Source of the DNA: an uncultured Clostridia bacterium
Lineage (GTDB): Bacteria; Bacillota; Clostridia; TANB77; CAG-508
DNA length: 45,672 nucleotides
Reading direction: 5' to 3'
Assembly (NCBI GenBank): GCA_944386325.1
Contig: CALXAP010000017.1
Span: 1-45,672, forward strand
Shown here: piece by piece, positions 10,262 through 27,440 of the stretch
Position numbering within the stretch: position 1 is the first letter of the stretch
Layout: the number at the start of each line of letters is the position of its first letter
Position numbers and translations under genes: made by a program
Notes under the pieces: model-generated
What the model was told of the DNA's origin: nothing
The model's input: the letters and a program-made list of their open reading frames with translations, nothing else
The model's database searches: none

Positions 10262-11941
10262 TTGAAAAGAGGTAGAAAGAGCAAATTTTGTGATAATGAT
10301 ACATTGCAAAACAAATGGAATGTTGCATTATATATTAGATTATCAGTTCAAGATGGAGATAAAGCAGAAAGTAATAGTGTAGCAAATCAAAGAGAATTAT
10401 TAGATATGTTCATCAAAAAAGATAAAGAATTGAATTTTTACAACTACTATATAGATGATGGATTTTCAGGAACTAACTTTGAAAGACCTAGTTTCAAGAA
10501 AATGATAAAAGATATAGATGCAGATTTAGTAAATGCTGTAGTTGTTAAAGATTTATCAAGATTAGGAAGAAATTATATTGAAGTTGGAAATTATATAGAA
10601 AAAGTCTTTCCTCTTTTTAGCATTAGATTTATAGCAATAAACGACCAAATAGATAGTATTAAAAATCCTGAATCAGTAAATAGTGTTATAGTACCTTTCA
10701 AGAATTTAATAAATGATGAATATTGTAGAGATATTTCAAACAAGATAAAGGCAGTTCTTAATGTTAAGATGAAAAAAGGGGAATATGTTGGAGCTTATGC
10801 ACCTTATGGATATATTAAAGATCCTGAAGATATACATCATCTTATAATTGATGAAGATGCTGCAAAAGTTGTTAAAATGATTTTTGAAATGACTTTAAAT
10901 GGATATGGTAGAACTGCAATAGCAAAGAAATTAAATGAACTTGGTATATTAAATCCAACAGGACATAGAGCTGAAGAATTAAAAATGAGAATACCTGTTG
11001 CAGAAGAAAAAAAGAATATAAAATATTCATGGTGTTCAACAACAGTTAGACAGATATTAAAAAATGAGATGTATTGTGGAGATACTATACAACATAAAGG
11101 AAAACTAATAAGTTACAAAATTCATAAGAGAGTATTATTACCTGAAGAAGAATGGGTTGTTGTTAAAGATACACATGAGGCAATTATTGATAGAGAATTA
11201 TTTGATAAAGTACAAAAGGCAATTTTATCAAGAGATACAAAAATGAATCGTGATGGAAAAATATCAATATTTGCAGGACATATTAAATGTGGAGATTGTG
11301 AAAGAGCAATGAGCAAAAAAATATCAGGCAGTTATAACGGAAAGAAAAGAGAAAAATATCATTATATGTGTTCTGCATATATGAGGTCAGGTGGTACAAG
11401 ATGTTCAAAACATAGTATTAGAAATGACGAATTAGAAAATGCAGTATTAGAAACAATTAAAATTCAAATAGGATTAATTTCTGATATAGATAGAATAAAA
11501 AAGGAAATTGATGATGGTGGATTTTTAGAAAAGAGAAAGCATTTTTTAGAAGAAAATATAAACAAATGTGAAGAATTTGCGAATATTAGAAGAAAGTTAA
11601 GAAAAGAGGCTTACGAGGATTGGAAATTAGGCAATATTACAGAAAAGGAATATAATGACTACACCAAAGAATATGGAGAGCAAATAAGGCAATCTGAGGA
11701 CACGATTGATAAATACTACGAAGAATTAAAGGAATTTGACCAAGCAAGTAGAGAAAGCAATTGGATTGAATATTTTACAAAATATAAAAATGTAAATAGT
11801 TTATCAAGAGAACTAATTGATAGTTTAGTAGATAATATTTATATATATGAAGATAAAAAAATCAAAATAAAGTTTAAGTATGAAGATGAATACAACTATT
11901 TAATGGATTTTATAAAAAGAAGAAAAAATTTCTTGTCATGA
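10262..11941 (+). CDS. Large serine recombinase (TnpX/TndX type)
   Basis: A 559-residue site-specific recombinase starting at TTG 10262 behind AAGGAGGT. The N-terminal resolvase domain has the catalytic serine in YIRLSVQDG (S28), with DDGFSGTNFERP and KDLSRLGRNY (catalytic Arg region) downstream. The middle recombinase domain is followed by a zinc ribbon (CGDCERAMSKK and, 35 residues on, C-x-A...RCSKH). The C-terminal third is coiled coil. The length fits TnpX-like enzymes that excise and integrate elements at GA dinucleotides. It is the likely integrase of the surrounding module. A terminator follows at once. Confidence 0.92.
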   Translation: MKRGRKSKFCDNDTLQNKWNVALYIRLSVQDGDKAESNSVANQRELLDMFIKKDKELNFYNYYIDDGFSGTNFERPSFKKMIKDIDADLVNAVVVKDLSRLGRNYIEVGNYIEKVFPLFSIRFIAINDQIDSIKNPESVNSVIVPFKNLINDEYCRDISNKIKAVLNVKMKKGEYVGAYAPYGYIKDPEDIHHLIIDEDAAKVVKMIFEMTLNGYGRTAIAKKLNELGILNPTGHRAEELKMRIPVAEEKKNIKYSWCSTTVRQILKNEMYCGDTIQHKGKLISYKIHKRVLLPEEEWVVVKDTHEAIIDRELFDKVQKAILSRDTKMNRDGKISIFAGHIKCGDCERAMSKKISGSYNGKKREKYHYMCSAYMRSGGTRCSKHSIRNDELENAVLETIKIQIGLISDIDRIKKEIDDGGFLEKRKHFLEENINKCEEFANIRRKLRKEAYEDWKLGNITEKEYNDYTKEYGEQIRQSEDTIDKYYEELKEFDQASRESNWIEYFTKYKNVNSLSRELIDSLVDNIYIYEDKKIKIKFKYEDEYNYLMDFIKRRKNFLS

Positions 11942-15425: not shown

Positions 15426-15776
15426 ATGTATAGAAATTACAGATGTAAATGTTGTATGAATAATAACAATTGTGAAGATAATATTTTTGAAAATATGTGT
15501 GAAAATGTTCCAAATACAACATGCCCAGATGATTATGATGCATGCGATTGTGGATTTGATGAAGAAGATAAATTATTCCCAAGTAATCCAATGTTTGGTC
15601 AAAGTTATGTGCCATGGCATACAATGAATAAAACATTCACACCAGAAGTTGGTTTAAAAATGGGAACAATTTTTCCAGAATTAGTATCACCATATGAACC
15701 ATGTCAATCTATGGAAGAAATAGCATATATTAGAGCAACAAATAAAATTGGAAGGGGATGTAATGATGGAAAATAA
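15426..15776 (+). CDS. cotJA: Spore coat protein CotJA
   Basis: A 116-residue protein. Its C-terminal 60 residues carry the CotJA pattern (GQSYVPWHTMNKTFTPEVGL, then GTIFPELVSPYEP). The N-terminal 45 residues are Cys- and Asn-rich (CKCCMNNNNCEDN), longer than in B. subtilis CotJA (82 aa). CotJA, CotJB and CotJC are made in the mother cell and assembled into the inner coat. AAGGAGG precedes ATG 15426. The end overlaps cotJB. A mother-cell sigma-E promoter is expected; CATAAAAT upstream (near 15384) is a possible -10, but I could not find a convincing -35. Confidence 0.9.
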   Translation: MYRNYRCKCCMNNNNCEDNIFENMCENVPNTTCPDDYDACDCGFDEEDKLFPSNPMFGQSYVPWHTMNKTFTPEVGLKMGTIFPELVSPYEPCQSMEEIAYIRATNKIGRGCNDGK

Positions 15777-16077
15777 TATGAATGAGTGTATGGAGAGTTC
15801 TCAAAGAGATAATTGTACATGTAATAATGACAATATGAGAGAACAAATGTTAATGAAAATAAAAGAATTAGATTTTGCCATAATAGAATTAGGATTATAT
15901 TTAGATACACATCCAGATGATCAAAGAGCATTGTGTATGCATAGAGAATATTGTAAAAAAGTTAAAGAATTAAAAGACAAATATCAAAAAATTTATGGAC
16001 CACTAACTATATTTTTCCCATGTAATAAGTGGAGATGGTTAGAGGAACCATGGCCATGGGAAGGAGGATGTTATTAA
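15763..16077 (+). CDS. cotJB: Spore coat protein CotJB
   Basis: A 104-residue protein. The core MLMKIKELDFAIIELGLYLD, followed by THPDDQRAL and the C-terminal PWPWEGGCY, is typical of CotJB. The start is set at ATG 15763 (15766 also possible) because AAGGGG lies at 15752-15757; the in-frame TTG at 15748 would include that site. It overlaps cotJA by 14 bases and its TAA overlaps the ATG of cotJC, the usual translationally coupled cotJ arrangement. It acts with CotJA and CotJC in the spore coat. Confidence 0.92.
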   Translation: MMENNMNECMESSQRDNCTCNNDNMREQMLMKIKELDFAIIELGLYLDTHPDDQRALCMHREYCKKVKELKDKYQKIYGPLTIFFPCNKWRWLEEPWPWEGGCY

Positions 16078-16274
16078 TGTGGGTTTATAAAAAAATGTTA
16101 GAATATCCTATAAAAATAAGACAAACAAATCCAAAATTAGCAAAATTTATAATATCTCAATATGGAGGACCAGATGGAGAGCTTGCAGCATCACTTAGAT
16201 ATTTATCACAAAGATTTGGAATGCCAGATGAAAAAGCAAAAGCTATATTAAACGATATAGGTACAGAAGAATAG
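16077..16274 (+). pseudogene. cotJC: cotJC segment 1: N-terminal 65 codons of coat Mn-catalase, interrupted by element 1
   Basis: Starts at ATG 16077 in TAATG overlap with cotJB behind GGAGG. It encodes residues 1-65 of CotJC, a Mn-catalase homologue of the spore coat (MWVYKKMLEYPIKIR, ISQYGGPDGELAASL), including Mn ligand E35. It runs to GTEE (E65) and then hits TAG at 16272-16274. Intact CotJC continues LAHLE; that continuation is at 22611. The GA of the last GAA codon (16269-16270) is the crossover dinucleotide. Excision of element 1 would replace the stop with TTA GCA CAT. In this configuration it encodes only a 65-aa fragment. I label it a pseudogene for want of a category; it is better described as the first segment of a gene assembled by recombination. 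Confidence 0.95.
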
Positions 16275-16296
16275 GATACATAGGTAATCGTTTAAA
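16269..16296 (+). other. attL of element 1
   Basis: The cotJC side reads ...ACAGAA, then the GA crossover at 16269-16270, then the element side. Thirteen bases after GA is GTAATCGTTTAAA, whose near-complement sits 14 bases from GA at the other end. Confidence 0.75.
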
Positions 16297-16339
16297 TTAA
16301 ATTTTTAAGTAATGAAATGCCAAAAATGTGCATATTTTA

Positions 16340-16368
16340 TTGATTTTAATATATAATGATAGTATAAT
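16340..16368 (+). promoter_or_regulatory. Sigma-A promoter of the defence pair
   Basis: TTGATT (16340-16345), a 17-base spacer and TATAAT (16363-16368). Just downstream, TTGCAATaaaATTGCAA (16380-16396) is a 7-bp perfect palindrome between promoter and RBS. It could be an operator or a small hairpin. Confidence 0.65.
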
Positions 16369-16413
16369 ATTTAAAAAACTTGCAATAAAATTGCAAATTG
16401 AAAGGAGATTATT

Positions 16414-17718
16414 ATGCTATTAGAATTTAAAATGAAAAATTTTAAATCTTTTAAAGAAGAAATGGATTTTAAAATGACTCCAACTCGAATAAAAGATTTG
16501 GAATATAGTCTAATAACAAGAAATATAAAAGGAGACGAAATAAAAGCTTTATCTTCTGCAGCTATATATGGACCTAATTCAGCTGGAAAAACTAATGTCA
16601 TTGGAGGAATGGATGTTTTTCGTTCTATAATATTAAATGGAAATATAAGAAATAAAGAAAATATAACAACTCCTAATACAGCAGTAGATAGATTAGAACT
16701 TATTCCCAATATTGAAAGCGAAGAAAATGAGCCAGTAAGTTTTTATATTAAATTTTTTACTGATAATATGATAGTTGAGTTAAGATTATCTATGTTAATA
16801 GGCGGATTTCTCGATGTTGAATATGATAGAAAAATAATAAATGAAGAGTTGTATATAAATAATAATTTGTTATATAAAAGAGATAAAGAATTAATTATAG
16901 GAAGAGTTGAAAACATTAGTGAATATTTAATAGAAAACTTTTCAAAGGATACAGCAGAGAAAATTGCAACAACAAATTTAGATAATAAAGAGTTATTTTT
17001 AAATGGTATGTTTAAATCTCTATATAGTAAAAAGATATTTGATATTATTTATAGATGGTTTAAAAAAGATTTTAAAATATTATATCATGCAGATATGATA
17101 CATTTTTCTCCTGTTATATCTTCAGACAAGAAAGATACAAAGTATTATATTGACAAGTCTTTAAATAAGGCAGTGAAAGATTTTGGATTAACATCAAAAC
17201 AAATTTTATACCCAATAAATAGTGAAAAGGAAAGAATAGAACCATTGTCAATGATTGAGTTTAAAGGAGGAAAAGTAATATTACCAGCTGACTTTTTTGA
17301 GTCATTTGGAACTATTAGATTTTTAAATATTTTTCCAATAATATTAATGACGATTCGAGATGGCTCAACTTTAGTAGTTGATGAACTGGATGCTTCTATA
17401 CATCCAATGGCAATTATGAATATTATCAACATATTTCACAATGATGAAATAAATACTAAAGGGGCACAATTAATTTTTAATACACATAATCCGATATTTT
17501 TAAATAATGCTTTATTAAGAAGAGATGAAATAAAATTTGTAGAAAAAGAAGATAAAGGAAGTATACATTATTCTTTATCAGATTTTGGAACAAATGGTAG
17601 TAATGGTGTTAGAAATACGGAAGATTACATGAAAAATTATTTTGTTAATAAATATGGAGCAATTAAAGATATAGATTTTTCAGGTGTTTTTATAAACGAA
17701 AATAGAAAGGAAAATTAA
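16414..17718 (+). CDS. AAA ATPase, RloA/AbiLi-like (phage defence)
   Basis: A 434-residue ATPase of the AAA_21/OLD-like ABC group. The N-terminus LLEFKMKNFKSFKEE is the classic start of such proteins. Walker A is GPNSAGKT (G53 to T60). A Walker B region TLVVDELDASIHP follows near residue 320, then NTHNPIFLN with the switch His. An AAAGGAG site precedes the ATG. It is followed after three bases by an RloB-like gene; this pair matches AbiLi/AbiLii and RloA/RloB, proposed ATPase sensor plus Toprim nuclease defence systems. Neither a restriction-modification gene nor anticodon-nuclease homologue is nearby. The function is inferred from family and pairing. Confidence 0.8.
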   Translation: MLLEFKMKNFKSFKEEMDFKMTPTRIKDLEYSLITRNIKGDEIKALSSAAIYGPNSAGKTNVIGGMDVFRSIILNGNIRNKENITTPNTAVDRLELIPNIESEENEPVSFYIKFFTDNMIVELRLSMLIGGFLDVEYDRKIINEELYINNNLLYKRDKELIIGRVENISEYLIENFSKDTAEKIATTNLDNKELFLNGMFKSLYSKKIFDIIYRWFKKDFKILYHADMIHFSPVISSDKKDTKYYIDKSLNKAVKDFGLTSKQILYPINSEKERIEPLSMIEFKGGKVILPADFFESFGTIRFLNIFPIILMTIRDGSTLVVDELDASIHPMAIMNIINIFHNDEINTKGAQLIFNTHNPIFLNNALLRRDEIKFVEKEDKGSIHYSLSDFGTNGSNGVRNTEDYMKNYFVNKYGAIKDIDFSGVFINENRKEN

Positions 17719-17721
17719 AAA

Positions 17722-18384
17722 TTGAAAAAAGTATGTAACAAATATTATCTATCAGTTGAAGGAGAAACAGAAAAGTGGTATTTTGAGCACTTACAAATGT
17801 TAATAAATAATAAGGAAGAATTATCATATACAGTTAAATTTGACATAAAAATTAACAAATCTATTATAAGTAGAGCAAAATCAATATCTGCACCATATAA
17901 AGTAAAAGTTTTTCATATATGTGATTATGAAAGTAATGAAGAAGTGCATACAGAGCAGTTTAATAAAATATTAAAAGAATTAAAAGATGTAAAGAAGATA
18001 AATAAAAATCTTGTTTACAAACTTGGATATAGTAATTTTTCATTTGAGTTATGGATAATTTTACACAAAATTAAACAAATAGGAGCGGTATCACATAGAA
18101 AACAATATGTAAAAGGAATTAATAAAGCTTTTGATGAAAAATTTCAATTTATCGATGATTATAAAGAAGAAAAGAATTTTAAAAGAATATTAAAGAAAAT
18201 AACTTTAGAAGATGTTATTTCAGCAGTTAATAATGCGAATGAAATTAGAAAAATGAATGAAGAAAATTTTAAATGTAACTATAGAAAATATGGACAATTT
18301 GAATATTATACTGAGAATCCTGATATGACAATTAATAAATGTGTTGAACAAATATTAAAAGAATGTGGAGCAATAAAAAAGTAA
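17722..18384 (+). CDS. RloB/AbiLii-like Toprim protein (phage defence)
   Basis: A 220-residue protein starting at TTG 17722. Toprim-like residues are visible: the Glu-rich first motif LSVEGETEKWYFEHL (E13-E17), VFHICDYES (acidic pair), and NFSFELWIILHKI, the 'N-FE-W-LLH' block typical of RloB. RloB-like proteins are thought to be the nuclease effector activated by the partner ATPase in the gene three bases upstream. The frame after its stop stays open for another 26 codons (DVHKFTEIQRDIHL... to KKSKN, stop near 18463), so a nonsense change cannot be excluded; normal-looking length argues against it. Confidence 0.75.
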   Translation: MKKVCNKYYLSVEGETEKWYFEHLQMLINNKEELSYTVKFDIKINKSIISRAKSISAPYKVKVFHICDYESNEEVHTEQFNKILKELKDVKKINKNLVYKLGYSNFSFELWIILHKIKQIGAVSHRKQYVKGINKAFDEKFQFIDDYKEEKNFKRILKKITLEDVISAVNNANEIRKMNEENFKCNYRKYGQFEYYTENPDMTINKCVEQILKECGAIKK

Positions 18385-18537
18385 GATGTACACAAATTTA
18401 CGGAAATTCAAAGAGATATTCATCTAACAATTCTAGAAAAAGCTAAGAAAAAATCAAAAAATTAGAAAATATTTACATTGAAAAATATAAATAATAAAGA
18501 TAAAAAAGGATAGAATAAATTTTGATGGAGGTATAAA

Positions 18538-19674
18538 ATGAAAAGATTAACAAAATTTATTCTATTTTTTATAAGTGTTGCTTTATTTATATTAGTAACA
18601 CCAAATTTAAGTAATGCACAAAGAGTTGCAAATAATGAAGAAACATTAAATAGTGAGATATCAGCTGCAGATCCAGGAGAAACAATTACTATCCAAAATG
18701 ATATAACAGTTACAAAACCAATAGTTATAGCAAAAGAATTAATAATTGATGGTAATGGTCATAATATTGTGGGATCAAATGATTGGACATCAACTTCTGG
18801 AAATCAAACTATGTTTACAGCACAATTATCTGATGCTAAACTTACACTTAAAAATATCAATTTAAAAAATGGACCTAAATATGGAGTACAGTCTTATGAT
18901 GGAGCAACAGTAATTTTAGATAATGTATCAATATCAGGTTTTAAATATGGTGGTGTACTTGCAAATGGTGGTAAAGTAGAAGTTAGAAACTTACATTTAG
19001 GATTAAATGGAGCAAATGAAAATAACGGTATTGAAATTGATAAGGGAGCTTCTGCTACAAATAATCCAACACTAGTAATGAATGGTGTATTAACTTCAGA
19101 ATCTAATGAAAATGTAATAAGACCTGCTGAAAATGGACATCTTACTGATTTTACTATAACAAATGAAGCAAATACAACAAATAAAGTAGTAGTATCTGGT
19201 AATAATGTTGTATTAACAGATTCAGCTGATAATGTTATTTCACAAACTAAAATACCAGACAAAGCAACTGCAAGTGGAGATATTCAAAAGCTTATTGTAA
19301 CAATAATTGCAAACGATAAAACAAATAAAATAACAGTAGATACAGGTAAAACAATAACAGCTGATTTATTAAAATCTCATATTCAATTAGAAGAAAATTA
19401 TACAATAGATGGATTTTATAGAGATTCAAATTATAGTGTAGAATTTAATTTTAATGATCCAATAAATACAGATACAACAATATATGCGAAAATTTCTCAA
19501 GTTGAAGTAACTGTTCCAGAAGAAGAACCAGAGACTGCACCAGAAACTGAAAAACCAATAAAAGATGAGACACCAAAAACAGGTATAGAAAATAATTTAT
19601 CAATTGCAATATTAACAATATTATTAGCAATAACAACAATTATAGCTATAAGAAAGAAAAATATAGAGGGATAG
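18538..19674 (+). CDS. Secreted, sortase-anchored beta-helix surface protein
   Basis: A 378-residue protein with a signal peptide (KRLTKFILFFISVALFILV, cleavage near SNAQ). Residues about 30-250 form repeated short strands (NDITVTKPIVIAKELIIDG, AKLTLKNINLKNG, ATVILDNVSISG) like pectate-lyase or right-handed beta-helix surface proteins. Residues about 255-325 resemble a Listeria-Bacteroides (Flg_new) repeat (YTIDGFYRDSNYSVEFNF). A Glu/Pro-rich wall spacer leads to the sorting signal TPKTG, a hydrophobic helix and RKKN. The class B-type sortase gene downstream is the obvious partner. GGAGG precedes the ATG. It is a cargo gene of element 1, and adhesion or glycan contact is possible. Confidence 0.85.
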   Translation: MKRLTKFILFFISVALFILVTPNLSNAQRVANNEETLNSEISAADPGETITIQNDITVTKPIVIAKELIIDGNGHNIVGSNDWTSTSGNQTMFTAQLSDAKLTLKNINLKNGPKYGVQSYDGATVILDNVSISGFKYGGVLANGGKVEVRNLHLGLNGANENNGIEIDKGASATNNPTLVMNGVLTSESNENVIRPAENGHLTDFTITNEANTTNKVVVSGNNVVLTDSADNVISQTKIPDKATASGDIQKLIVTIIANDKTNKITVDTGKTITADLLKSHIQLEENYTIDGFYRDSNYSVEFNFNDPINTDTTIYAKISQVEVTVPEEEPETAPETEKPIKDETPKTGIENNLSIAILTILLAITTIIAIRKKNIEG

Positions 19675-19693
19675 TTTAAAAGCTATCCTTTTA
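19668..19693 (+). terminator. Terminator after the surface protein gene
   Basis: GGATAG (19669-19674, overlapping the stop) pairs with CTATCC (19683-19688) and is followed by Ts. Confidence 0.65.
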
Positions 19694-19771
19694 TTATTAA
19701 TAGTAAAAGGCTCGAAAATAATTTAATCTTTTTCAACCAGTTGATGCCTTGGGAGAGGAATAATAATATAT

Positions 19772-20608
19772 ATGAAAAAAAATATAATGATAAAGATTAT
19801 ATATTTAAGTTTAATTTTGATAATAATATTATGTATAATATATATTTTTGAATATTTATTGATAAAAAAGGAAGCTTTAGAGGAAAGTAGATTGTTAAAT
19901 AATTCTGATAAAGCAAAATATATAGCAAATGATTTTATGAAGGAAACAATTAATTCAAATAATATATTACAAAAAATAGGTATTGCACACGGGGAATACA
20001 AACAAGATGTAATAGACGAAAATAAAAGAATGAGTAAATTAGATGAACTAAGAAAACAAAATTCAGATATCATTGGATGGCTTGAAATAGAGGGAACAAG
20101 TATTAATTATCCAGTATTACAAGGAGATAATGATACTTATTATATGAATCACAATTATAAAAAGCAAAAATCTAAAAATGGTTCAATTTTTCTGACTAGT
20201 GAATATGATTGGAATATTCCAAGTTCAAATTTGTTGATATTTGGGCACAATATGAATAATGGTACAATGTTTCAAGAGTTATTAAAATATGAAAATGAAT
20301 CATTTTATAAAAAACATCCAAAAATTAGATTTACTACGATAAATGGAGATTCTGAGTATGAAATTATTTCTGCATTTAAATCTAGAGTTTATTATAAATC
20401 TGAAAAAGATGTTTTCAGATATTATTATTTTGTAAATGCAAATAATGAACAAGAATATAATGATTTTGTAAAAAATGCAAAAAAAGCTTCATTATATAAT
20501 ATTGATGCAACAGCTAAGTATGGAGAACAATTAATTACATTATCTACATGTTCATATCATGTAAAAGATGGTAGATTTGCTGTTATAGCTAGAAAAATTG
20601 AAAAATAA
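19772..20608 (+). CDS. Class B-type sortase
   Basis: A 278-residue membrane-anchored transpeptidase. Residues about 6-30 are an N-terminal membrane helix. The catalytic domain follows: NSDIIGWLEIEGTSINYPVL, SNLLIFGHNMNNGTMF (catalytic His), LITLSTCSYH (catalytic Cys) and GRFAVIARK (catalytic Arg). The layout fits class B sortases. It would attach the TPKTG protein encoded just upstream to the cell wall, so the two genes form a cargo pair of element 1. The RBS (GAGAGG) is about a dozen bases from the ATG, slightly far. A possible sigma-E-like promoter lies just after its stop. Confidence 0.9.
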   Translation: MKKNIMIKIIYLSLILIIILCIIYIFEYLLIKKEALEESRLLNNSDKAKYIANDFMKETINSNNILQKIGIAHGEYKQDVIDENKRMSKLDELRKQNSDIIGWLEIEGTSINYPVLQGDNDTYYMNHNYKKQKSKNGSIFLTSEYDWNIPSSNLLIFGHNMNNGTMFQELLKYENESFYKKHPKIRFTTINGDSEYEIISAFKSRVYYKSEKDVFRYYYFVNANNEQEYNDFVKNAKKASLYNIDATAKYGEQLITLSTCSYHVKDGRFAVIARKIEK

Positions 20609-20618
20609 TATTTCGAAT

Positions 20619-20646
20619 TACTATTTTAATATTTTTTGCATACATA
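20619..20646 (+). promoter_or_regulatory. Possible sigma-E (mother-cell) promoter before the element 1 recombinase unit
   Basis: TACTATT (20619-20625; six of seven against KMATATT), a 13-base spacer and CATACATA (20639-20646; seven of eight against CATACAHT). The spacer is one base shorter than usual, and the implied leader before ATG 20664 is very short, though ample for the recombinase at 20875. If real, it would make recombinase expression mother-cell specific. Confidence 0.35.
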
Positions 20647-20663
20647 TAAAAAGAGGTGTATGT

Positions 20664-20813
20664 ATGATAGTTGATGAATATAAAAGCGATTCTACTATAA
20701 TTAGAATTGATGATAGAGATATAGTCAATGAGGAGGAAAATAAGAAAATATTAGATATATTATTAAGTTTAAATATTAAAAAAATTTCAAAATACTTTGA
20801 AAATAATTTGTGA
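20664..20813 (+). CDS. 49-aa protein upstream of the recombinase (candidate accessory or directionality factor)
   Basis: ATG 20664 follows AGAGGTG and encodes MIVDEYKSDSTIIRIDDRDI, then a charged helix ending FENNL. Very small proteins with a 'ST-IRI-D' start sit directly upstream of large serine recombinases in many Clostridia elements, as I remember it. It is 61 bases upstream of the recombinase and probably co-transcribed. A role in controlling excision versus integration is an inference from position only. An in-frame longer reading from 20598 would overlap the sortase end and lacks an RBS. Confidence 0.55.
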   Translation: MIVDEYKSDSTIIRIDDRDIVNEEENKKILDILLSLNIKKISKYFENNL

Positions 20814-20874
20814 TTTTATCTACTCCTATCTAAATTCACAGTAGTCTATAAAATTTTCAAGAAAAGGAGGAATT

Positions 20875-22428
20875 TTGGAAGATATATATGGTGGATACTC
20901 TAATGAAAAAGTATTAGATATATCAGGAGAATATGCTATTTATTTAAGAAAATCAAGAGCAGATATGGAAGCAGAGGCAAAAGGAGAAGGTGAAACTCTT
21001 GCTAGACATGAACATATATTGTTAGAACTTGCAAATAAAAAAGGCTTGAGAATAGGTAAAGTATATAGAGAAATAGTAAGTGGAGAAACAATTGAGTCAA
21101 GACCAGAAATGCAAAAATTATTATCAGATGTAAAGCTAGGTAAGTGGAAAGGTGTACTTGTTGTTGAAGTAGAAAGGCTAGCTCGTGGAGAAACAATAGA
21201 TCAAGGAGTTGTTGCAAAAGCATTTAGAATTTCTAATACAAAAATAGTAACACCTATGAAAACTTATGATCCAAATGATGAATTTGATGAGGAATATTTT
21301 GAATTTGGATTGTTTATGTCAAGAAGAGAGTATAAAGTAATAAATAGAAGATTACAAAGAGGAAGAATATTGTCAGTAAAAGAAGGAAAATATGTTGGAA
21401 GTGTAGCACCTTTTGGATATGATAGATTAAAAATTAAAGGTGATAAAGGATATACATTAAGGAAAAATGCAGAGGCAAATACAGTTAAAATAATGTATGA
21501 TTTATATGTTTATGATGATTTATCACTATATGAAGTAACCAGAAAATTAAATGAAATGGGACTAAAACCAAGAAAAAAGGATGAGTGGTCTGTGGCATCT
21601 GTTAAAGATATACTTGCAAATCCAGTATATGTAGGTAAAATAAAATGGAATTGGAGAAAAGTAGTAAAAGTATATAAACATGATAAACTAATATCTACAA
21701 GACCAAGAAATGATGATTATATATTAGTAGATGGATTACATAAACCAATTATAGATGAAAAAACATGGAAAATTGCATCAGCTAAAAGAAGTTTGAATTC
21801 TGCACCTGTGAAACACAATAATACAGTTCGAAATCCCTTATGTGGTTTAATTATATGTGCTAAATGTGGTAAAAAAATGAAAAGGAGGTCTTATTCAAAA
21901 TTTAGCAAAGAGCCAACTTTATATTGTGATAACCCTAAGTGTGATAATATAGGCTCGAAGTTTTGTTATATAGAAGAAAAAGTATTGGAAGGTTTGAGAA
22001 AGTGGTTAGAGGAATATAAATTCGACTATCAACAACATTTAGAAAAGATAAACCATAATAAAATGGATTCAATAAAAGAAACAATTGCATCATTAGAGCA
22101 AGAGGCTAAAAAGGAAAATGATAAATTACTTAGTATATTTAATTTTTTAGAAGATGGTACATATACAAAAGAAATGTTTAATGCAAGAAGTGAGGCAGTA
22201 TCCAAAAATGTAGAAAGAATTAATAATTCAATTGAAAACTATAAAACAAAATTAGCACAGGAAAAAATAATGGATAAAGAAAAAGATGTATTAGTACCTA
22301 AAATTGAAAATGTATTAGATGTATATAATTTATTACAAACTGCAGAAGAAAAAAATGAATTACTAAAAACAGTAATAACTCGGGGTTACATATCTAAAAA
22401 CAGAAAAGGCAATACGAAAAGATTCTGA
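20875..22428 (+). CDS. Large serine recombinase of element 1, C-terminus frameshifted
   Basis: A 517-residue reading from TTG 20875 behind AAGGAGG. Resolvase domain: catalytic serine in YLRKSRADM (S27), VEVERLARGETID (Arg region). Recombinase domain to about residue 300, zinc ribbon CAKCGKKMKRRS with CDNPKCDN, then coiled coil. The frame ends TRGYISKNRKGNTKRF. One base forward, the other frame continues with a convincing ending (VTYLKTEKAIRKDSDPTNF, then INIYPKINKVM, stop 22480). Dropping one G from the GGGG run at 22382-22385 restores a protein of about 534 residues. It is the presumed excisionase of element 1; loss of the last helix or strand might or might not disable it. Confidence 0.88.
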   Translation: MEDIYGGYSNEKVLDISGEYAIYLRKSRADMEAEAKGEGETLARHEHILLELANKKGLRIGKVYREIVSGETIESRPEMQKLLSDVKLGKWKGVLVVEVERLARGETIDQGVVAKAFRISNTKIVTPMKTYDPNDEFDEEYFEFGLFMSRREYKVINRRLQRGRILSVKEGKYVGSVAPFGYDRLKIKGDKGYTLRKNAEANTVKIMYDLYVYDDLSLYEVTRKLNEMGLKPRKKDEWSVASVKDILANPVYVGKIKWNWRKVVKVYKHDKLISTRPRNDDYILVDGLHKPIIDEKTWKIASAKRSLNSAPVKHNNTVRNPLCGLIICAKCGKKMKRRSYSKFSKEPTLYCDNPKCDNIGSKFCYIEEKVLEGLRKWLEEYKFDYQQHLEKINHNKMDSIKETIASLEQEAKKENDKLLSIFNFLEDGTYTKEMFNARSEAVSKNVERINNSIENYKTKLAQEKIMDKEKDVLVPKIENVLDVYNLLQTAEEKNELLKTVITRGYISKNRKGNTKRF

Positions 22429-22580
22429 TCCAACAAATTTTATAATAAATATATATCCAAAAATTAATAAGGTAATGTAAAAAAGTTTTTGGAATTATAA
22501 TTTAAAAACTGGAATAGGAAGTAATTTAATGCTTAAAAATTTCAGTCATATAATTAAATAAGAAAAATTTTTTTTTAGGC

Positions 22581-22611
22581 TTCAAACGACTACATTATAG
22601 TGCAAACGAAT
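22581..22611 (+). other. attR of element 1
   Basis: The element side carries TTCAAACGACTAC (22581-22593), then 14 bases, then the crossover GA (22608-22609) inside GAAT, then cotJC codon 66 onward (TTA GCA CAT). Confidence 0.75.
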
Positions 22612-22829
22612 TAGCACATTTAGAGATGGTTGGAACAATAGTTCATCAATTAACAAAAGGAGCAACAATTGAAGAAATAAAAGAAGCTGGTTTAGGTGCA
22701 TATTATACAGATCATGGGGTAGATGTTTATCCGCAAGCAGCATCAGGAATGCCTTTTAATGCAGCTGTATTAGCATGTAAAGGAGATCCAATTGCAAACT
22801 TACAAGAAGATTTAGCAGCAGATAAGTAA
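22608..22829 (+). pseudogene. cotJC: cotJC segment 2: codons 66-135, flanked by elements 1 and 2
   Basis: Encodes LAHLEMVGTIVHQLTKGATI through YYTDHGVDVYPQAASGMPFN to NLQEDLAA, the middle of CotJC, with Mn ligand H68. It has no RBS or start of its own at the right place; ATG 22626 inside it is an internal Met of CotJC. After LAA the frame reads D K and stops at 22829, whereas intact CotJC continues EQKARATYE, found at 27240. The crossover GA is 22821-22822. It is one 70-codon stretch stranded between two different mobile elements and is translated only if element 1 is removed. Confidence 0.95.
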
Positions 22830-22844
22830 GGTTTTAAGTGCAAC
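22821..22844 (+). other. attL of element 2
   Basis: Crossover GA at 22821-22822, then 14 bases of element DNA, then AGTGCAAC, the inverted arm motif also found at the other end of element 2. Confidence 0.75.
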
Positions 22845-22866
22845 TATAATAGGTAAAATTATAGAA

Positions 22867-22959
22867 TTGATAATTTATGCTATTTTGCTTATACTATTAA
22901 CAATAGGTGTGACAGTTTTAATAAATAGTCAGACTAAAGAAGTTTTAATAGAAATATAA
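22867..22959 (+). CDS. Possible 30-aa hydrophobic peptide
   Basis: A TTG-started frame MIIYAILLILLTIGVTVLIN, then SQTKEVLIEI and a stop. It is a single membrane helix. No clear RBS precedes it, and the frame is open upstream into the att region, so it may be the tail of a lost gene. Weak support. Confidence 0.2.
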   Translation: MIIYAILLILLTIGVTVLINSQTKEVLIEI

Positions 22960-23028
22960 AAAAATGAATTTTAAAATGGTAAGTTTTATGCTATAATATT
23001 TATAATATGGTAAAGAGAGGTGTTGAGT

Positions 23029-23265
23029 ATGCAAGCTATTAATATGCAAGAATTAGAAACTGCTATGAATAAATATGGAGATATTGTATTAACTAAAAAT
23101 GATAAGAATAATGTAATTGTTTTAAGTGTAGAACAATATAAAGAAAAATTACTAGATGAAAAAATAGAAAAGAAATTATTAAAAGCTGAAAAACAAATAA
23201 AAGAAGGCAAAACAGTCAAAGCAGCAGATGTATTTAAGGAGTTGGAAGAAAAATATGGATTCTAA
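23029..23265 (+). CDS. Phd/YefM-type antitoxin
   Basis: A 78-residue protein (MQAINMQELETAMNKYGDIV, then LTKNDKNNVIVLSVEQYKEK). The N-terminal half fits the Phd/YefM DNA-binding fold, and the charged C-terminal helix would neutralise a toxin. ATG 23029 is eight bases after GAGAGG. A TATAAT-like element lies just upstream (near 22992). The toxin gene starts inside its last codons (ATG 23255), the usual order for autoregulated toxin-antitoxin operons. Its toxin appears broken, so it may now be an orphan antitoxin, stabilising nothing or controlling other copies. Confidence 0.75.
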   Translation: MQAINMQELETAMNKYGDIVLTKNDKNNVIVLSVEQYKEKLLDEKIEKKLLKAEKQIKEGKTVKAADVFKELEEKYGF

Positions 23266-23479
23266 AAAAGAAATATATGAAATAGAATTTACTGAAGATG
23301 CAAGAGATGAAATTAGAGAAATTTATGAATATATTTCTAAGAATTTAGTAAATGAAGATGCTGCAAAAAGGCTGATGAGAAAAATGAGAAAAAATGTAAT
23401 GGATTTAGAAAAATCTTCTAAAATATATGCTTTATGTGTTAATCTATCAACATTGTTGCTGTTAATATTGAATCTTTAA
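23255..23479 (+). pseudogene. Truncated RelE/ParE-type toxin
   Basis: The start MDSKKEIYEIEFTEDARDEI, then REIYEYISKNLVNEDAAKRL is typical of ParE/RelE toxins. After about 55 residues (DLEKSSKIY) the sequence turns into LCVNLSTLLLLILNL and stops, with no match to the core C-terminal strands of the family that carry the active surface. Total length is 74 residues against the usual 90-105. The break falls where unrelated decayed coding sequence begins (about 23430), which suggests a deletion or insertion fused two gene remnants. Probably inactive. Confidence 0.65.
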
Positions 23480-23782
23480 ATATTTCATTCCATCTTTCAA
23501 ATGATAAACTTGTTGTTATTATTTACTTTTTCTTCCTGCTCTTAAAAATAAATTAGAAAAAAGTAATTCCGAGCCTTCTTCATCAAATGAAATATATCTG
23601 TATTTTTCAATTGAAATTCTCTTATTTTTTAAATCACTTTTAGTTTATCAAAAACATAATTTTATAAATTCGGGAAATATTAGTAATTTTGATATTTCTA
23701 CAATTGAAACTCATAATAAAAGTATGGTTGTAAATTTTTCAAATAACCTAAAAGAAAATCATAAAGAAAAAATAGATACATA
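23430..23782 (+). pseudogene. Decayed gene remnant in element 2
   Basis: No intact gene. One frame reads VNIESLNISFHLSNDKLVVI and, after a shift near 23525, another continues PALKNKLEKSNSEPSSSNEI, then QKHNFINSGNISNFDISTIE to KENHKEKIDT and a TAA at 23780-23782. The Asn/Ser-rich text looks like genuine protein that has suffered at least one frameshift. I do not recognise it. It begins where the truncated toxin loses its homology. Confidence 0.4.
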
Positions 23783-23847
23783 ACACTTTATATCTTTTGG
23801 TAATGAAAAACAATTTTAAATCATATTTTTTAATATGGAGGTATTGT

Positions 23848-24003
23848 ATGGAAAAAACAGTTTTAGAAGAAAAGCAAATTATCGAAGTGGATAATAAAAA
23901 ATATACAGTAATTTCAAGAAAGGCAAAAGAAGTATTTAGTAAAGAAAAATTAGTGAAATTAATTGCTAAATATGCTTTAGCAGAACTTCAAAAAGATTAT
24001 TAA
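23848..24003 (+). CDS. 51-aa protein upstream of the tandem recombinases
   Basis: ATG 23848 lies behind GGAGG (23836-23840) and encodes MEKTVLEEKQIIEVDNKKYT, then VISRKAKEVFSKEKLVKLIA to LQKDY. The in-frame upstream ATGs have no RBS. It is slightly similar in size, position and pattern (a 'YTV-S' strand followed by a Lys-rich helix) to TnpW-like small proteins of Tn4451-type elements, but I cannot confirm this. A strong hairpin separates it from the recombinases. Possible accessory or directionality factor of element 2. Confidence 0.5.
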   Translation: MEKTVLEEKQIIEVDNKKYTVISRKAKEVFSKEKLVKLIAKYALAELQKDY

Positions 24004-24016
24004 AAGAGCTAATGAA

Positions 24017-24055
24017 AACTACAATGATTCGTTATAATATCATTGTAGTTATTTC
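24017..24055 (+). terminator. 12-bp hairpin before the tandem recombinases
   Basis: AACTACAATGAT (24017-24028) pairs perfectly with ATCATTGTAGTT (24039-24050), followed by a weak T tract (ATTTCTT). It could terminate or attenuate transcription into the recombinase genes. Just downstream CTTAC/GTAAG flanks the AAGGGAG ribosome-binding site (about 24070-24087). Confidence 0.6.
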
Positions 24056-24090
24056 TTAAATTATACAACTTACGAAGGGAGCGTAAGAGT

Positions 24091-25653
24091 TTGAGAAATA
24101 ATAAATTTAGAGTAGGAGGATATTTAAGATTATCAAGAGAAGATGGAGATAAAGAGGAAAGTGATAGTATAGGTAGTCAAAGAAGTATTATAGAAGAAAA
24201 AATAAAACAACTTGGAAACGATTTTGAATTATATGACTTTTATATTGATGATGGATATACAGGACTAAATACAGATAGACCATCTTTTCAAAGACTATTG
24301 GAGGACATCGAAAGAAAAAAGATTAATTGCATTATTACAAAAGACTTATCGAGATTATCAAGAAATAATTTTGAGGCAAATTATTTATTAGAGATTTATT
24401 TTTTAGAGAAAAATATAAGATATATATCCATATTAGATAATGTTGATACTTATAAAAAGAGTTCTAATAATGATATTATCCAATTTAAAACACTTATTAA
24501 TGATTGGTATAGTAAAGATATATCAAGAAAAGTGAAAAGTGGTGTATGGGCAAGAAAAGAACAAGGATTGTTTGTTGGAGCAAAAGCACCTTATGGATAT
24601 GTGAAGGATGAAAATAATAGAAATAAATTACTAATAAATAAAGAAGAAGCGAGGATTGTAAAGAAAATTTTTCAAATGTACGATAATGGCTATACTATGG
24701 GAGAAATTGCTACAAAGCTATCAGCTGAAAAAGTATATTGCGCTAGTTATAACGGATTCGAAAAAAATAAAAATGGAATATATGGATGGAATTATTCAAC
24801 CATATCGAAAATTTTAAAAAATGAATTTTATTTAGGGCACACAGTTTATGGTAAAGTTATGAATTTAAGTTATAAATCAAAGAAAGTAAAATTTGTCCCT
24901 AGAGAAGAATGGAAAATTAGTTATAATACTCATAAAGCAATAATTTCAAGAGAACTTTTTGATAGTGTTCAAAATAAAATGAAATTGAATCAAAAAGCAA
25001 AAACACATAAACATACATGGGTTTTAAATGGTATTGTAAAATGTAAAGAATGTGGAGAAGCAATGCAATTAAAAGTTAAATATAGGAAAGATAAGAAAAC
25101 GATTAGTTTTATGCGATTATATTGTTCAAGTAGTTTACATAAAAAAGGATATTGTATAAGAAAGTACAGAGGAACAAATCTTCAATCAGTTACACAAATT
25201 GTGGTAAGTGAATTAAATAAAAAGGTTAAAAATATTGTTAATTGTGAAGATGTTATAGAACTACTAGAAAAATATTATAAAAATAAAGATAATACAGAAG
25301 AAGAAAAAGAACTAAAAGAAACAATAAAGCAATTAGAGAAAACAAATAAAATGATATCGTCTTTATATCTTGACTATAAAAATGGTGTTATCCAAGAGAT
25401 CGATTTCAGAACAATGTATAATCAAGAAATAGCAAAAAGAGATAACCTAAATGAAAAAATTGATAAGATTAACAATATAATTAATAACAATATGAAAATA
25501 TCAGATATTCAATTAAAAAAAGTTGTAAAAAAGGTATCAAATGTGAAAAATTGGTCTAAGGAACAATTAGCTGATGTTATTGAAAGTGTTGAAATAGACA
25601 ACGAAGATCATATTTATATAAATTACAAATATGATATAATGGTGATTGCTTAA
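24091..25653 (+). CDS. Large serine recombinase A of element 2
   Basis: A 520-residue enzyme starting at TTG 24091. Catalytic serine in YLRLSREDGDKEESDS (S15), DDGYTGLNTDRP, KDLSRLSRNN with the Arg, recombinase domain (GAKAPYGYVKDENNR, STISKILKNEFYLGH), zinc ribbon (CKECGEAMQLK ... YCSSS), then coiled coil and a C-terminal strand region. It is TndX/TnpX-like in length and motifs. The AAGGGAG site sits in a small hairpin loop. The partner gene follows after two bases, so the two proteins are made together. Confidence 0.92.
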   Translation: MRNNKFRVGGYLRLSREDGDKEESDSIGSQRSIIEEKIKQLGNDFELYDFYIDDGYTGLNTDRPSFQRLLEDIERKKINCIITKDLSRLSRNNFEANYLLEIYFLEKNIRYISILDNVDTYKKSSNNDIIQFKTLINDWYSKDISRKVKSGVWARKEQGLFVGAKAPYGYVKDENNRNKLLINKEEARIVKKIFQMYDNGYTMGEIATKLSAEKVYCASYNGFEKNKNGIYGWNYSTISKILKNEFYLGHTVYGKVMNLSYKSKKVKFVPREEWKISYNTHKAIISRELFDSVQNKMKLNQKAKTHKHTWVLNGIVKCKECGEAMQLKVKYRKDKKTISFMRLYCSSSLHKKGYCIRKYRGTNLQSVTQIVVSELNKKVKNIVNCEDVIELLEKYYKNKDNTEEEKELKETIKQLEKTNKMISSLYLDYKNGVIQEIDFRTMYNQEIAKRDNLNEKIDKINNIINNNMKISDIQLKKVVKKVSNVKNWSKEQLADVIESVEIDNEDHIYINYKYDIMVIA

Positions 25654-25655
25654 AA

Positions 25656-27185
25656 ATGAACAAAAATTACAAAGCTGGAGTATATTTGAGAATATCTAAA
25701 GAAGATAAAGAAGAACGAAACAGTATTTCGAGCCAAAAAGCAATAATAGAAAAATATGCTAAAGAACATAATTACAATATATTTGAAGAATATATAGATA
25801 ATGGATATTCAGGAATATTAAGTTCAAAGCCAGCATTAGATAGAATGATGTTAGACATTATAAGAAGAAAAATAAATATGGTTATAGTTAAAGATACAAG
25901 TAGATTGACTAGAGATAAGAATTTAACTTCATATTTTACAGACATATTTTTTCCTGAAAATGATATTCGTTTTATATCAGTTACTGAATATGTTGATACT
26001 GGAGAAAGATATGACATAGATGATATTGTTGCACTTAAAGGTATTATTAATCAAAGTTATTTAGAAGATATGTCAAAAAAAATAAAATTAGTAAAAAATG
26101 AATTTAAAAAGCAAGGAAAATTTATCGAAAACTCTGTTCCTTATGGTTATAAAAAAGATGAAAACAATAAATATCAATTAATAATAGATTCAGAAGTTGC
26201 AAATGTTATTAAAGAAATATTTGCATTATATTTAAAAGGAATCAAACCTTTTGATATAGCAAATGAACTTAATGACCGAAAAATAAAAACACCTTCGGCA
26301 TACCAGAATCTAAATAAACAAGCTAAATGTTGGACTAATAAGATTATTAATAGAATATTAGCAAATCCAGTTTATACTGGAAGATTACCTATTAATAAAT
26401 ATTGTAATGATTATAAAGCAAAGAGAACAAAAGTAACACCAAATGATAAGTTGAAATTTTGTGAAAATTCGCATAGGGCAATTATTTCAATAGAAGATTT
26501 TGAAAAAGTAAAACAAAAAAGGGCCAGTCGTGTGAAAAATGAAAGAACAGAATATATATACTTATTAAAAGATTTAGTCTATTGTAAAAATTGTGGTTGT
26601 AAATTAACATATAAAAATAATAGTCCGCTTAGACAAAACTCAAAAGGTGTTATATTAGGAAAGAAAAATGAAAGTGGTAGATTTGTATGCGAAGAACATA
26701 ATAGAAATAAGAAAATGTGTAAATATAGCGATATTAAAATAACTGAAAAAGAACTAAATGAAATTGTATTAAAACAAATATCTAAAAGATTCAAAGAAAT
26801 ACAAATTGAAAAATATGGAGAAAATATAGAAAACGAGATTTCAAAATCAATTCCTTTAAAAGATAATGAAAAGAAATTGAAAATGGAATTACAAAATCAA
26901 GAAAAATATTTTAAAACTTTATATACTAAAAAAGTGGAAGGAATTATAACAGAGGAAGAATTTTTAGAAAAATATAATGTCTATCAAAACAAAATAAATA
27001 ATTTAAAAGAAGAACTAAATAGGTTAGGGGAAAATAATAAAACCAAAAATTTCCCTGAAACAATAAATAAGCTAATTCAAGAGTTTTCGGATACCAAAAG
27101 ATTTGATAATGTAATGATAAAGAAATTAATTGAAAAAATTGAGGTTAATAGAAATAATGAAGTTTATATTTCTTTGAAGGTGTAA
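25656..27185 (+). CDS. Large serine recombinase B of element 2
   Basis: A 509-residue enzyme. Catalytic serine in YLRISKEDKEERNSIS (S14), DNGYSGILSSKP, KDTSRLTRDKNLTS, recombinase domain (NSVPYGYKKDENN, NKIINRILANPVYTG), zinc ribbon (CKNCGCKLTYKN ... CEEHN), coiled coil and a final strand (VEVNRNNEVYISLKV type). It is only distantly related to recombinase A. Two adjacent large serine recombinases occur in some elements where both are needed, as with CcrA/CcrB of SCCmec. Whether A and B act as partners here is unknown. The right end of element 2 lies about 50 bases downstream. Confidence 0.92.
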   Translation: MNKNYKAGVYLRISKEDKEERNSISSQKAIIEKYAKEHNYNIFEEYIDNGYSGILSSKPALDRMMLDIIRRKINMVIVKDTSRLTRDKNLTSYFTDIFFPENDIRFISVTEYVDTGERYDIDDIVALKGIINQSYLEDMSKKIKLVKNEFKKQGKFIENSVPYGYKKDENNKYQLIIDSEVANVIKEIFALYLKGIKPFDIANELNDRKIKTPSAYQNLNKQAKCWTNKIINRILANPVYTGRLPINKYCNDYKAKRTKVTPNDKLKFCENSHRAIISIEDFEKVKQKRASRVKNERTEYIYLLKDLVYCKNCGCKLTYKNNSPLRQNSKGVILGKKNESGRFVCEEHNRNKKMCKYSDIKITEKELNEIVLKQISKRFKEIQIEKYGENIENEISKSIPLKDNEKKLKMELQNQEKYFKTLYTKKVEGIITEEEFLEKYNVYQNKINNLKEELNRLGENNKTKNFPETINKLIQEFSDTKRFDNVMIKKLIEKIEVNRNNEVYISLKV

Positions 27186-27216
27186 ATATTACACCTAAAT
27201 TTTTAAAATAAAAAAG

Positions 27217-27241
27217 GTTGCACTATATTACCTTTTTGAGA
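27217..27241 (+). other. attR of element 2
   Basis: GTTGCACT (27217-27224), 15 bases, then the crossover GA (27240-27241), then cotJC codon 136 onward. Confidence 0.75.
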
Positions 27242-27440
27242 GCAAAAAGCAAGAGCAACTTATGAAAAATTAATAGATTTATGTCATGATGAACCAGATA
27301 TAATAGATCCATTAAAATTTTTAAGAGAAAGAGAAGTAGTTCATTTCCAAAGATTTGGAGAAGCATTAAGAGGAGTACAAGATAAATTAGCAGAAAAGAA
27401 ATTTTATATGAATAATTGTAATAATCCTTGCATGAAATAA
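27240..27440 (+). pseudogene. cotJC: cotJC segment 3: codons 136-201 and stop
   Basis: Reading from GAG 27240: EQKARATYEKLIDLCHDEPD, then PLKFLREREVVHFQRFGEAL, ending CNNPCMK and TAA 27438-27440. This is the C-terminal third of CotJC with Mn ligands E136 (first codon, at the crossover) and H170. The E136-H170 spacing of 34 is close to the 33 of Glu148-His181 in the Lactobacillus plantarum enzyme. There is no start or RBS here. The piece is in frame with segments 1 and 2 after removal of both elements (201 aa in total; B. subtilis CotJC is about 190). A terminator follows. Confidence 0.95.

Follow-up and report, generated by a model that had tools for sequence, protein, structure and literature searches.

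Developmental rearrangement has been recorded in a few genes of spore-forming bacteria, as a rule with one element in each. According to the accessible parts of the reports cited here, excision of SPβ reconstitutes the spore-envelope gene spsM in Bacillus subtilis (PMC4191935), and the directionality factor of the skin element of Clostridioides difficile, CD1234, is controlled by σE and SpoIIID, which confines excision to the mother cell (PMC5025042). The gin element of gerE in Bacillus cereus ATCC10987 is a single element of 28.6 kb without phage genes, with several serine recombinases and a small factor, GirX (PMC5595907). Intervening elements have also been described in spoVFB (vfbin), spoVR (vrin), kamA (phi3T) and yabG (yin), and the accessible text of these descriptions (PMC4191935, PMC6957869, PMC10747680) mentions no target gene with many sites. 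In cyanobacteria, elements interrupting nifD, hupL and other heterocyst genes are excised in a terminal cell; several elements are reported in 10 of 87 genes, with four in nifD of Rivularia (PMC4874684). The present analysis concerns cotJC, a spore-coat Mn-catalase gene, in an uncultured Clostridia bacterium (lineage CAG-508; assembly GCA_944386325.1). The whole stretch analysed, contig CALXAP010000017.1 with its 45,672 nucleotides, is called the window. In it, cotJC is split by two elements that bear recombinases:

16077..16271, + strand, cotJC piece 1, codons 1-65, with the GA core at 16269-16270
16272..22610, element 1, 6,339 bp, at site B, in the Glu65 codon
22611..22820, + strand, cotJC piece 2, codons 66-135
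22821..27239, element 2, 4,419 bp, at site E, in the Glu136 codon
27240..27440, + strand, cotJC piece 3, codons 136-201 and stop

Like skin in sigK of B. subtilis and C. difficile, the cotJC elements carry recombinases and lie inside a mother-cell gene that rejoining would restore. Unlike skin, they target a coat catalase and not a sigma factor, with several sites and elements per gene. Like gin, they lack phage genes and carry several serine recombinases as well as a small candidate factor, but they measure 6.3 and 4.4 kb, and two occupy one gene. SPβ differs in being a full prophage with a single site, and vfbin, vrin, phi3T and yin interrupt different genes. Excision in a terminal cell, as proposed here, is common to the heterocyst elements, most of which reside in nitrogen fixation genes and about half of whose recombinases are of the tyrosine type.

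A reading of the window made from sequence alone (the sequence-only reading) had proposed three in-frame pieces of cotJC and given the lengths of both elements, and these were borne out to the base. When the pieces are joined at the shared GA, an open frame results that begins with ATG, runs for 201 codons to a stop and contains no internal stop. The dinucleotide is found at 16269-16270 and 22608-22609 for element 1, and at 22821-22822 and 27240-27241 for element 2. The joined protein is 79-87% identical to 30 intact proteins of the family, in alignments that are ungapped internally and cover both junctions. Residues E35, E65, H68, E136 and H170 align, as counted by hand, with E35, E66, H69, E148 and H181 of 1jku, which we take to be its Mn ligands. 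Both breaks fall inside codons of predicted Mn-ligand glutamates. The joined product is predicted from these alignments to be a Mn-catalase family member (PF05067) with its ligand positions kept.

The profile search with PF05067 covered the whole genome (1.687 Mb in 37 contigs, 99.4% complete). Three pieces of cotJC were matched, at 16077-16274 (profile 1-67), 22599-22832 (profile 63-153) and 27237-27386 (profile 149-197), and no intact or second copy was found on any of the 37 contigs. Such a copy had been named beforehand as evidence against the split, as had an assembly error at the boundaries. Chance or mis-assembly is implausible because many other genomes are broken at the same codons.

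The family set comprised 243 genomes, including that of the window (genomes are denoted G, loci L and contigs C). PF05067 was matched in 212 of them and not in 31. The 127 genomes with partial or multiple matches were searched again with a family CotJC alignment, which matched in 125. The 210 genomes classified were drawn from this re-searched set, the genome of the window, and 99 genes listed as intact in the profile-search table. The search of relatives for an intact gene, proposed by the sequence-only reading, found cotJC intact or nearly so in 102 of the 210, three of them under a lenient rule (G097 and G229, where the gene is at a contig edge, and G103, with internal stops). The gene is split by an element within one contig in at least 38 genomes, a lower bound because G113 (L085), with a 5.8-kb split on one contig, misses the gap rule and was counted as a single partial piece. 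Pieces lie on different contigs without an intact gene in 31 genomes, and a single partial piece is found in 26; these 57 genomes may have true splits or assembly gaps. The remaining 13 have contiguous frameshifts only. Two or more elements on single contigs occur in six genomes; G058 carries them in two gene copies, whereas in G000, G140, G151, G155 and G200, the window's genome among them, they interrupt one gene. Both G140 and G238 have four cotJC pieces on two contigs. The sequence-only reading thus holds for the anatomy, the exact junctions, the recombinases and the lack of an intact copy, and fails where it considered two elements in one gene to be unusual.

Fifty-eight non-redundant junctions were analysed for their site and shared core. 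They fall at five places in the gene: site A near codon 33 (5 junctions, GA common to both arms in 4), site B at codon 65 (32, GA common in 29), site C at codon 100 (10, gene nucleotides 299-300 common in 9), site D near codon 117 (2, core common in 1) and site E at codon 136 (9, GA common in all 9). Two of the three exceptions at site B, L088 and L089, contain an additional C within a CGG of the left arm, and the third, L064, is a doubtful pairing. Joining at the fixed core left 56 of the 58 free of stops over the stretch examined. The duplicates L106, L110 and L117 (of L053, L034 and L036) had been dropped before the junction, tree and joined-gene counts, and L064 was additionally dropped before interval lengths were taken. 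The 57 intervals between pieces have a median length of 5.9 kb, the shortest being 2.8 kb and the longest 17.9 kb. Two bigger ones, outside that list, measure 46 kb in G063 and 45 kb in [Clostridium] asparagiforme. In L041 (G116), extra 3' parts of cotJC (97-184 and 61-184) follow one 1-104 part, and in L051 (G155) two 3' pieces lie 1.9 kb apart; repeated integration may have left these extra parts behind.

Whether the splits result from fragmented assembly was examined with spoIVA as a control (found in 113 of 117 genomes), and this explanation was rejected. Pieces more than 1.5 kb apart on one contig occurred only in G020, a result read from the table, and this genome also has an intact spoIVA. 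On its contig C40, a second spoIVA copy is apparently split by about 10.6 kb (66-123 and 120-160).

All 28 fully joined split genes are free of stops. They were joined at best-match points, by which the additional CGG base of L088 was skipped. The median ω was 0.136 between split genes (316 of 378 pairs usable) and 0.116 between split and intact genes (674 of 840).

A tree was built from 50 large serine recombinases (LSRs) of at least 450 residues, 49 found at the sites and one other from the window. The 27 rows of site B form one clade (100/100), as do the 8 of site C and the 3 of site A. Site E requires three changes, for a group of six rows and for each member of the tandem pair present in the window and in G063. 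The site labels require 4 changes on the tree, the minimum possible, compared with a mean of 20.3 when shuffled. By this tree, the recombinase clade goes with the integration site. Some branches are long and the tool warned of false joins; all rows were picked for lying by a split, and many of site B were fetched with the LSR1 query, which favours clustering. The other LSR of the window, a fourth one at 10262-11941 behind a DUF6870 open reading frame (ORF), is unlike those of cotJC in the tree, and no target was found for it. The only solved structures found to be related to LSR1 are those of SPβ YokA, presumably identical to SprA.

Joined and element-bearing forms are found together in the assembly of one relative, G148, and G150 suggests the same. 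In G148, contig C35 stops at codon 65, and its last 127 bp are common to C11 and C58. Past this common segment, C11 continues as intact cotJC, and C58 runs into an arm resembling that of other site-B elements. In G150, a contig beginning at the GA core overlaps by 77 bp an unbroken contig that spans codons 1-88. Contigs of G047, G132 and G154 stop one or two bases past codon 65, and one of G133 begins at codon 136; contig ends of this kind are expected wherever reads go two ways. G097 and G229 show 77-bp overlaps that stop just before the site A core (gene nucleotide 95) and are not fully explained. The difference of 3.2% between the intact gene and a 3' part in G021 marks them as different copies. 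Excision rebuilding the gene is supported indirectly by the forms of G148, by G150 and by the conserved joined genes.

The cotJ genes upstream and the contents of the elements are as follows:

15426..15776, + strand, cotJA (PF11007, E 7.6e-11)
15748..16077, + strand, cotJB (PF12652, E 2.5e-28)
16414..17718, + strand, AbiLi-like AAA ATPase (PF13304; PADLOC AbiLi, E 8e-70)
17722..18384, + strand, RloB-like protein, partner of the ATPase (PF13707)
18538..19674, + strand, ORF for a predicted surface protein (weak PF09479, below cut-off)
19772..20608, + strand, sortase (PF04203)
20639..20647, + strand, CATACATAT, a -10-like box of the σE/σK type before the candidate directionality factor (conserved upstream block; background test)
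20664..20813, + strand, 49-residue ORF, candidate recombination directionality factor 1 (21 matches outside the window and its copy L077)
20875..22428, + strand, LSR1, large serine recombinase of the site-B clade (PF00239, PF07508; tree)
23020..23265, + strand, Phd/YefM-like antitoxin (weak PF02604, E 0.00021, below cut-off)
23848..24003, + strand, 51-residue ORF, candidate recombination directionality factor 2 (relative in G063)
24091..25653, + strand, LSR2a, large serine recombinase (PF00239, PF07508; paired with kin in G063)
25656..27185, + strand, LSR2b, large serine recombinase (PF00239, PF07508; paired with kin in G063)

Intact cotJA and cotJB precede the split gene. Both elements encode large serine recombinases, as the sequence-only reading had it, element 1 a single one and element 2 two in tandem. 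The GC content is 0.249 for element 1 and 0.236 for element 2, with 0.255 and 0.253 in the flanking DNA. No phage structural gene is found among the Pfam matches of the element ORFs in the window. A set of 113 of 220 cargo ORFs, including four from the window, was run against Pfam and PHROGs. RhuM, AAA_21 and SHOCT were the commonest Pfam families, each present in four ORFs. Among the 25 most frequent Pfam families or PHROGs of these 113, none was a capsid, portal, tail or terminase family. No structural PHROG was matched by ten ORFs from two larger elements. Judged by phage structural genes among these matches, the elements do not class as prophages.

The 49-residue ORF has 21 matches in other loci (E ≤0.01) besides the window and its copy L077, or 19 without the duplicates L110 and L117. 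The 51-residue ORF is 64% identical to a relative in the corresponding position of the G063 element (L096). Both are candidate recombination directionality factors (RDFs). When 13 upstream regions (11 distinct) were aligned, only the block around GCATACATAT and the ribosome-binding site were alike. Promoter-type boxes were counted before 19 RDF candidates (17 of the first kind and two of the second) and 198 background genes. A CATACA-type box 16-36 nucleotides before the start was found in 10 of the 19 and in none of the 198, and CATA in 17 of the 19 as against 17 of the 198; these counts are not independent, because the RDF candidates are related. The conserved block was also considered as a hairpin, a reading rejected because L037 and L109 keep CATACATAT without the 3' arm (by eye). 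The accessible text on C. difficile describes σE and σK promoters with a common -10 and different -35 elements (PMC3789822). The conserved -10-like box suggests developmental control of excision. As for σK itself, SigK matches in several relatives and in the window's genome (9-206) end at profile positions 197-213 of 227, which may mean sequence divergence or a C-terminal break.

Frame changes by +1 with CGG were observed in cotJC of several relatives (L039, L045, L072 from the L062 genome, L065-L071, L088 and L089) and in LSR genes (L036, L047, L048, L073, L081, L083, L088, L091 and L118). CGGN stands in place of the Gly codon of relatives, or Ala at one position. Contiguous frame breaks occur likewise in spoIVA of relatives, and the window has no CGG in the 7,469 codons of 19 genes. 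This looks like +1 frameshifting at an unassigned CGG. Eleven loci whose LSR ORF is short or missing were examined, of which nine showed frame changes (11 in all) and L053 and L111 none. The objection that these recombinases are decayed was set aside, all 11 frame changes having CGG in the stretch shown.

Split cotJC is also found beyond the family. In [Clostridium] asparagiforme DSM 15981, whose genome is filed as complete, the gene is split at site B into codons 1-68 and 60-183, 45 kb apart. Lacrimispora celerecrescens 152B and Lacrimispora amygdalina have elements at sites A and B. A possible sixth site, near codon 53-58, is seen in Anaerobacterium chartisolvens (L177), where the cotJC pieces are about 12.8 kb apart and no intact gene was found. 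An LSR1 relative from the same species (L144) was considered in connection with that split and set aside, its contig being of differing size. Twelve records of a phage collection match CotJC. The five that were fetched (L181-L185) are all named Bacteriophage sp. and come from human faeces; by their ranges, MT838203, MT837874, MT839049 and MT839280 fit site B and MT835881 fits site E. Some entries filed as phages may be fragments of interrupted host spore genes together with their elements. Phage phi027 of C. difficile was rejected as a split case, as its cotJC-like neighbour is a whole ORF downstream of attR in the accessible text (PMC11222575).

The reading that best accounts for these data, to which we give a probability of about 0.72, is that the two recombinase-bearing elements excise precisely at the shared GA, likely in the sporulating mother cell, and so rebuild the 201-codon cotJC (probabilities for this and four rivals were set to sum to one). 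Excision in the mother cell is proposed by analogy with skin, SPβ and gin. LSR1 would remove element 1, with the small protein encoded upstream of it as directionality factor, and LSR2a, LSR2b or both would remove element 2; both excisions would be needed before CotJC could be made. The spore's copy would keep its elements, because only the dying mother cell would be rearranged. On this view, the elements would act as introns at the DNA level, in a gene whose only use is in a terminal cell.

Several observations weigh against this reading. Joining at the fixed core yields a stop in L064 and L088, a shifted peptide in L089 and a changed peptide in L134 (site A). The inferred circle junctions are weakly symmetric, their pairing counts being reached in 201 and 642 of 20,000 shuffles and their longest symmetric runs in 410 and 70. 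The circle-junction strings of both elements had no exact match in viral contigs, and no joined form of this species was found, the best public protein being 90% identical among the 120 listed of 8,000 scored. No -35 element is conserved, by eye, in the aligned regions before the RDF candidate, and the stricter CATANNNT occurs in 3 of 19 RDF candidates and 10 of 198 background genes. A search of named genomes with LSR1 alone gave 55 loci, of which 27 have a cotJC piece (counted by hand) and 28 have none in the fetched stretch, some of these being on short contigs; the wider LSR1 family has targets other than cotJC. Alternatively, cotJC could be a dispensable safe harbour, turned off in its carriers, from which excision is rare and unlinked to sporulation. 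A dead gene could take further inserts at no cost, PF05067 is unmatched in the 31 family genomes noted above, and [C.] asparagiforme, L. celerecrescens and L. amygdalina each hold an intact cotJC paralogue beside the split gene. The median ω is also slightly higher between split genes than between intact ones (0.092, 300 of 435 pairs usable). Nevertheless, ω is far below 1 and the joined genes are all open; the window and G037, of the same genus, differ by a dN of 0.034 for a dS of 0.479. The RDF candidates have sigma-like boxes, and the window's genome lacks an intact copy. A safe harbour is judged unlikely, although it is the strongest of the rivals.

Nearly on a par with it, and also improbable, is ordinary mobility, with excision at low frequency in all growth conditions and CotJC made only where the elements happen to have left. 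It would account for the joined and integrated forms found together in one metagenome bin, G148, which could also be a strain mixture, and excised yin was seen at all time points in Clostridium botulinum, according to the accessible text (PMC10747680). The conserved -10-like box before the RDF candidate speaks instead for developmental control. A split protein assembled from three separately translated pieces is very improbable: well conserved as the pieces are in relatives, pieces 2 and 3 directly follow element DNA with a first codon that is not a start, and both breaks lie in predicted Mn-ligand codons. An artefact of assembly or binning is the least credible, even in a 37-contig draft genome, given the many assemblies broken at the same codons and the split in the chromosome of [C.] asparagiforme DSM 15981.

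By the features tested, the cotJC elements belong with the sporulation gene-intervening elements of the skin, SPβ and gin class. The core is shared at both ends, and exact excision would restore the frame. The gene lies behind cotJA and cotJB, and its mother-cell control is taken from C. difficile homologues; in that species a sigK mutant shows downregulation of cotCB and cotD, according to the accessible text (PMC3789822). What sets them apart within that class is the stacking of elements in one gene and the tie between sites and recombinase clades, the kind of element itself being already known. No published description of split cotJC was recognised in a literature search that left subscription papers mostly outside, and one may have been published.

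We lean, with less confidence than for the rebuilding of the gene in the window, towards a wider proposal. In a large Clostridia lineage, cotJC would be a standing docking gene, often in up to four pieces, with at least five codon-exact sites and distinct recombinase clades each acting on one conserved stretch, some of these being metal-ligand codons. Up to three independent excisions would take place per mother cell, and the elements would be DNA introns of the dying cell. A small coat gene is cut at at least five fixed codons by several recombinase clades, family-wide and beyond. The cultured hosts in Lacrimispora and [C.] asparagiforme make the proposal directly testable. If true, the cotJC loci would supply recombinases whose natural target sites are known, and would serve as natural replicates for studying the coordination of several excisions and the way in which mobile elements turn harmless by residing in a terminal cell.

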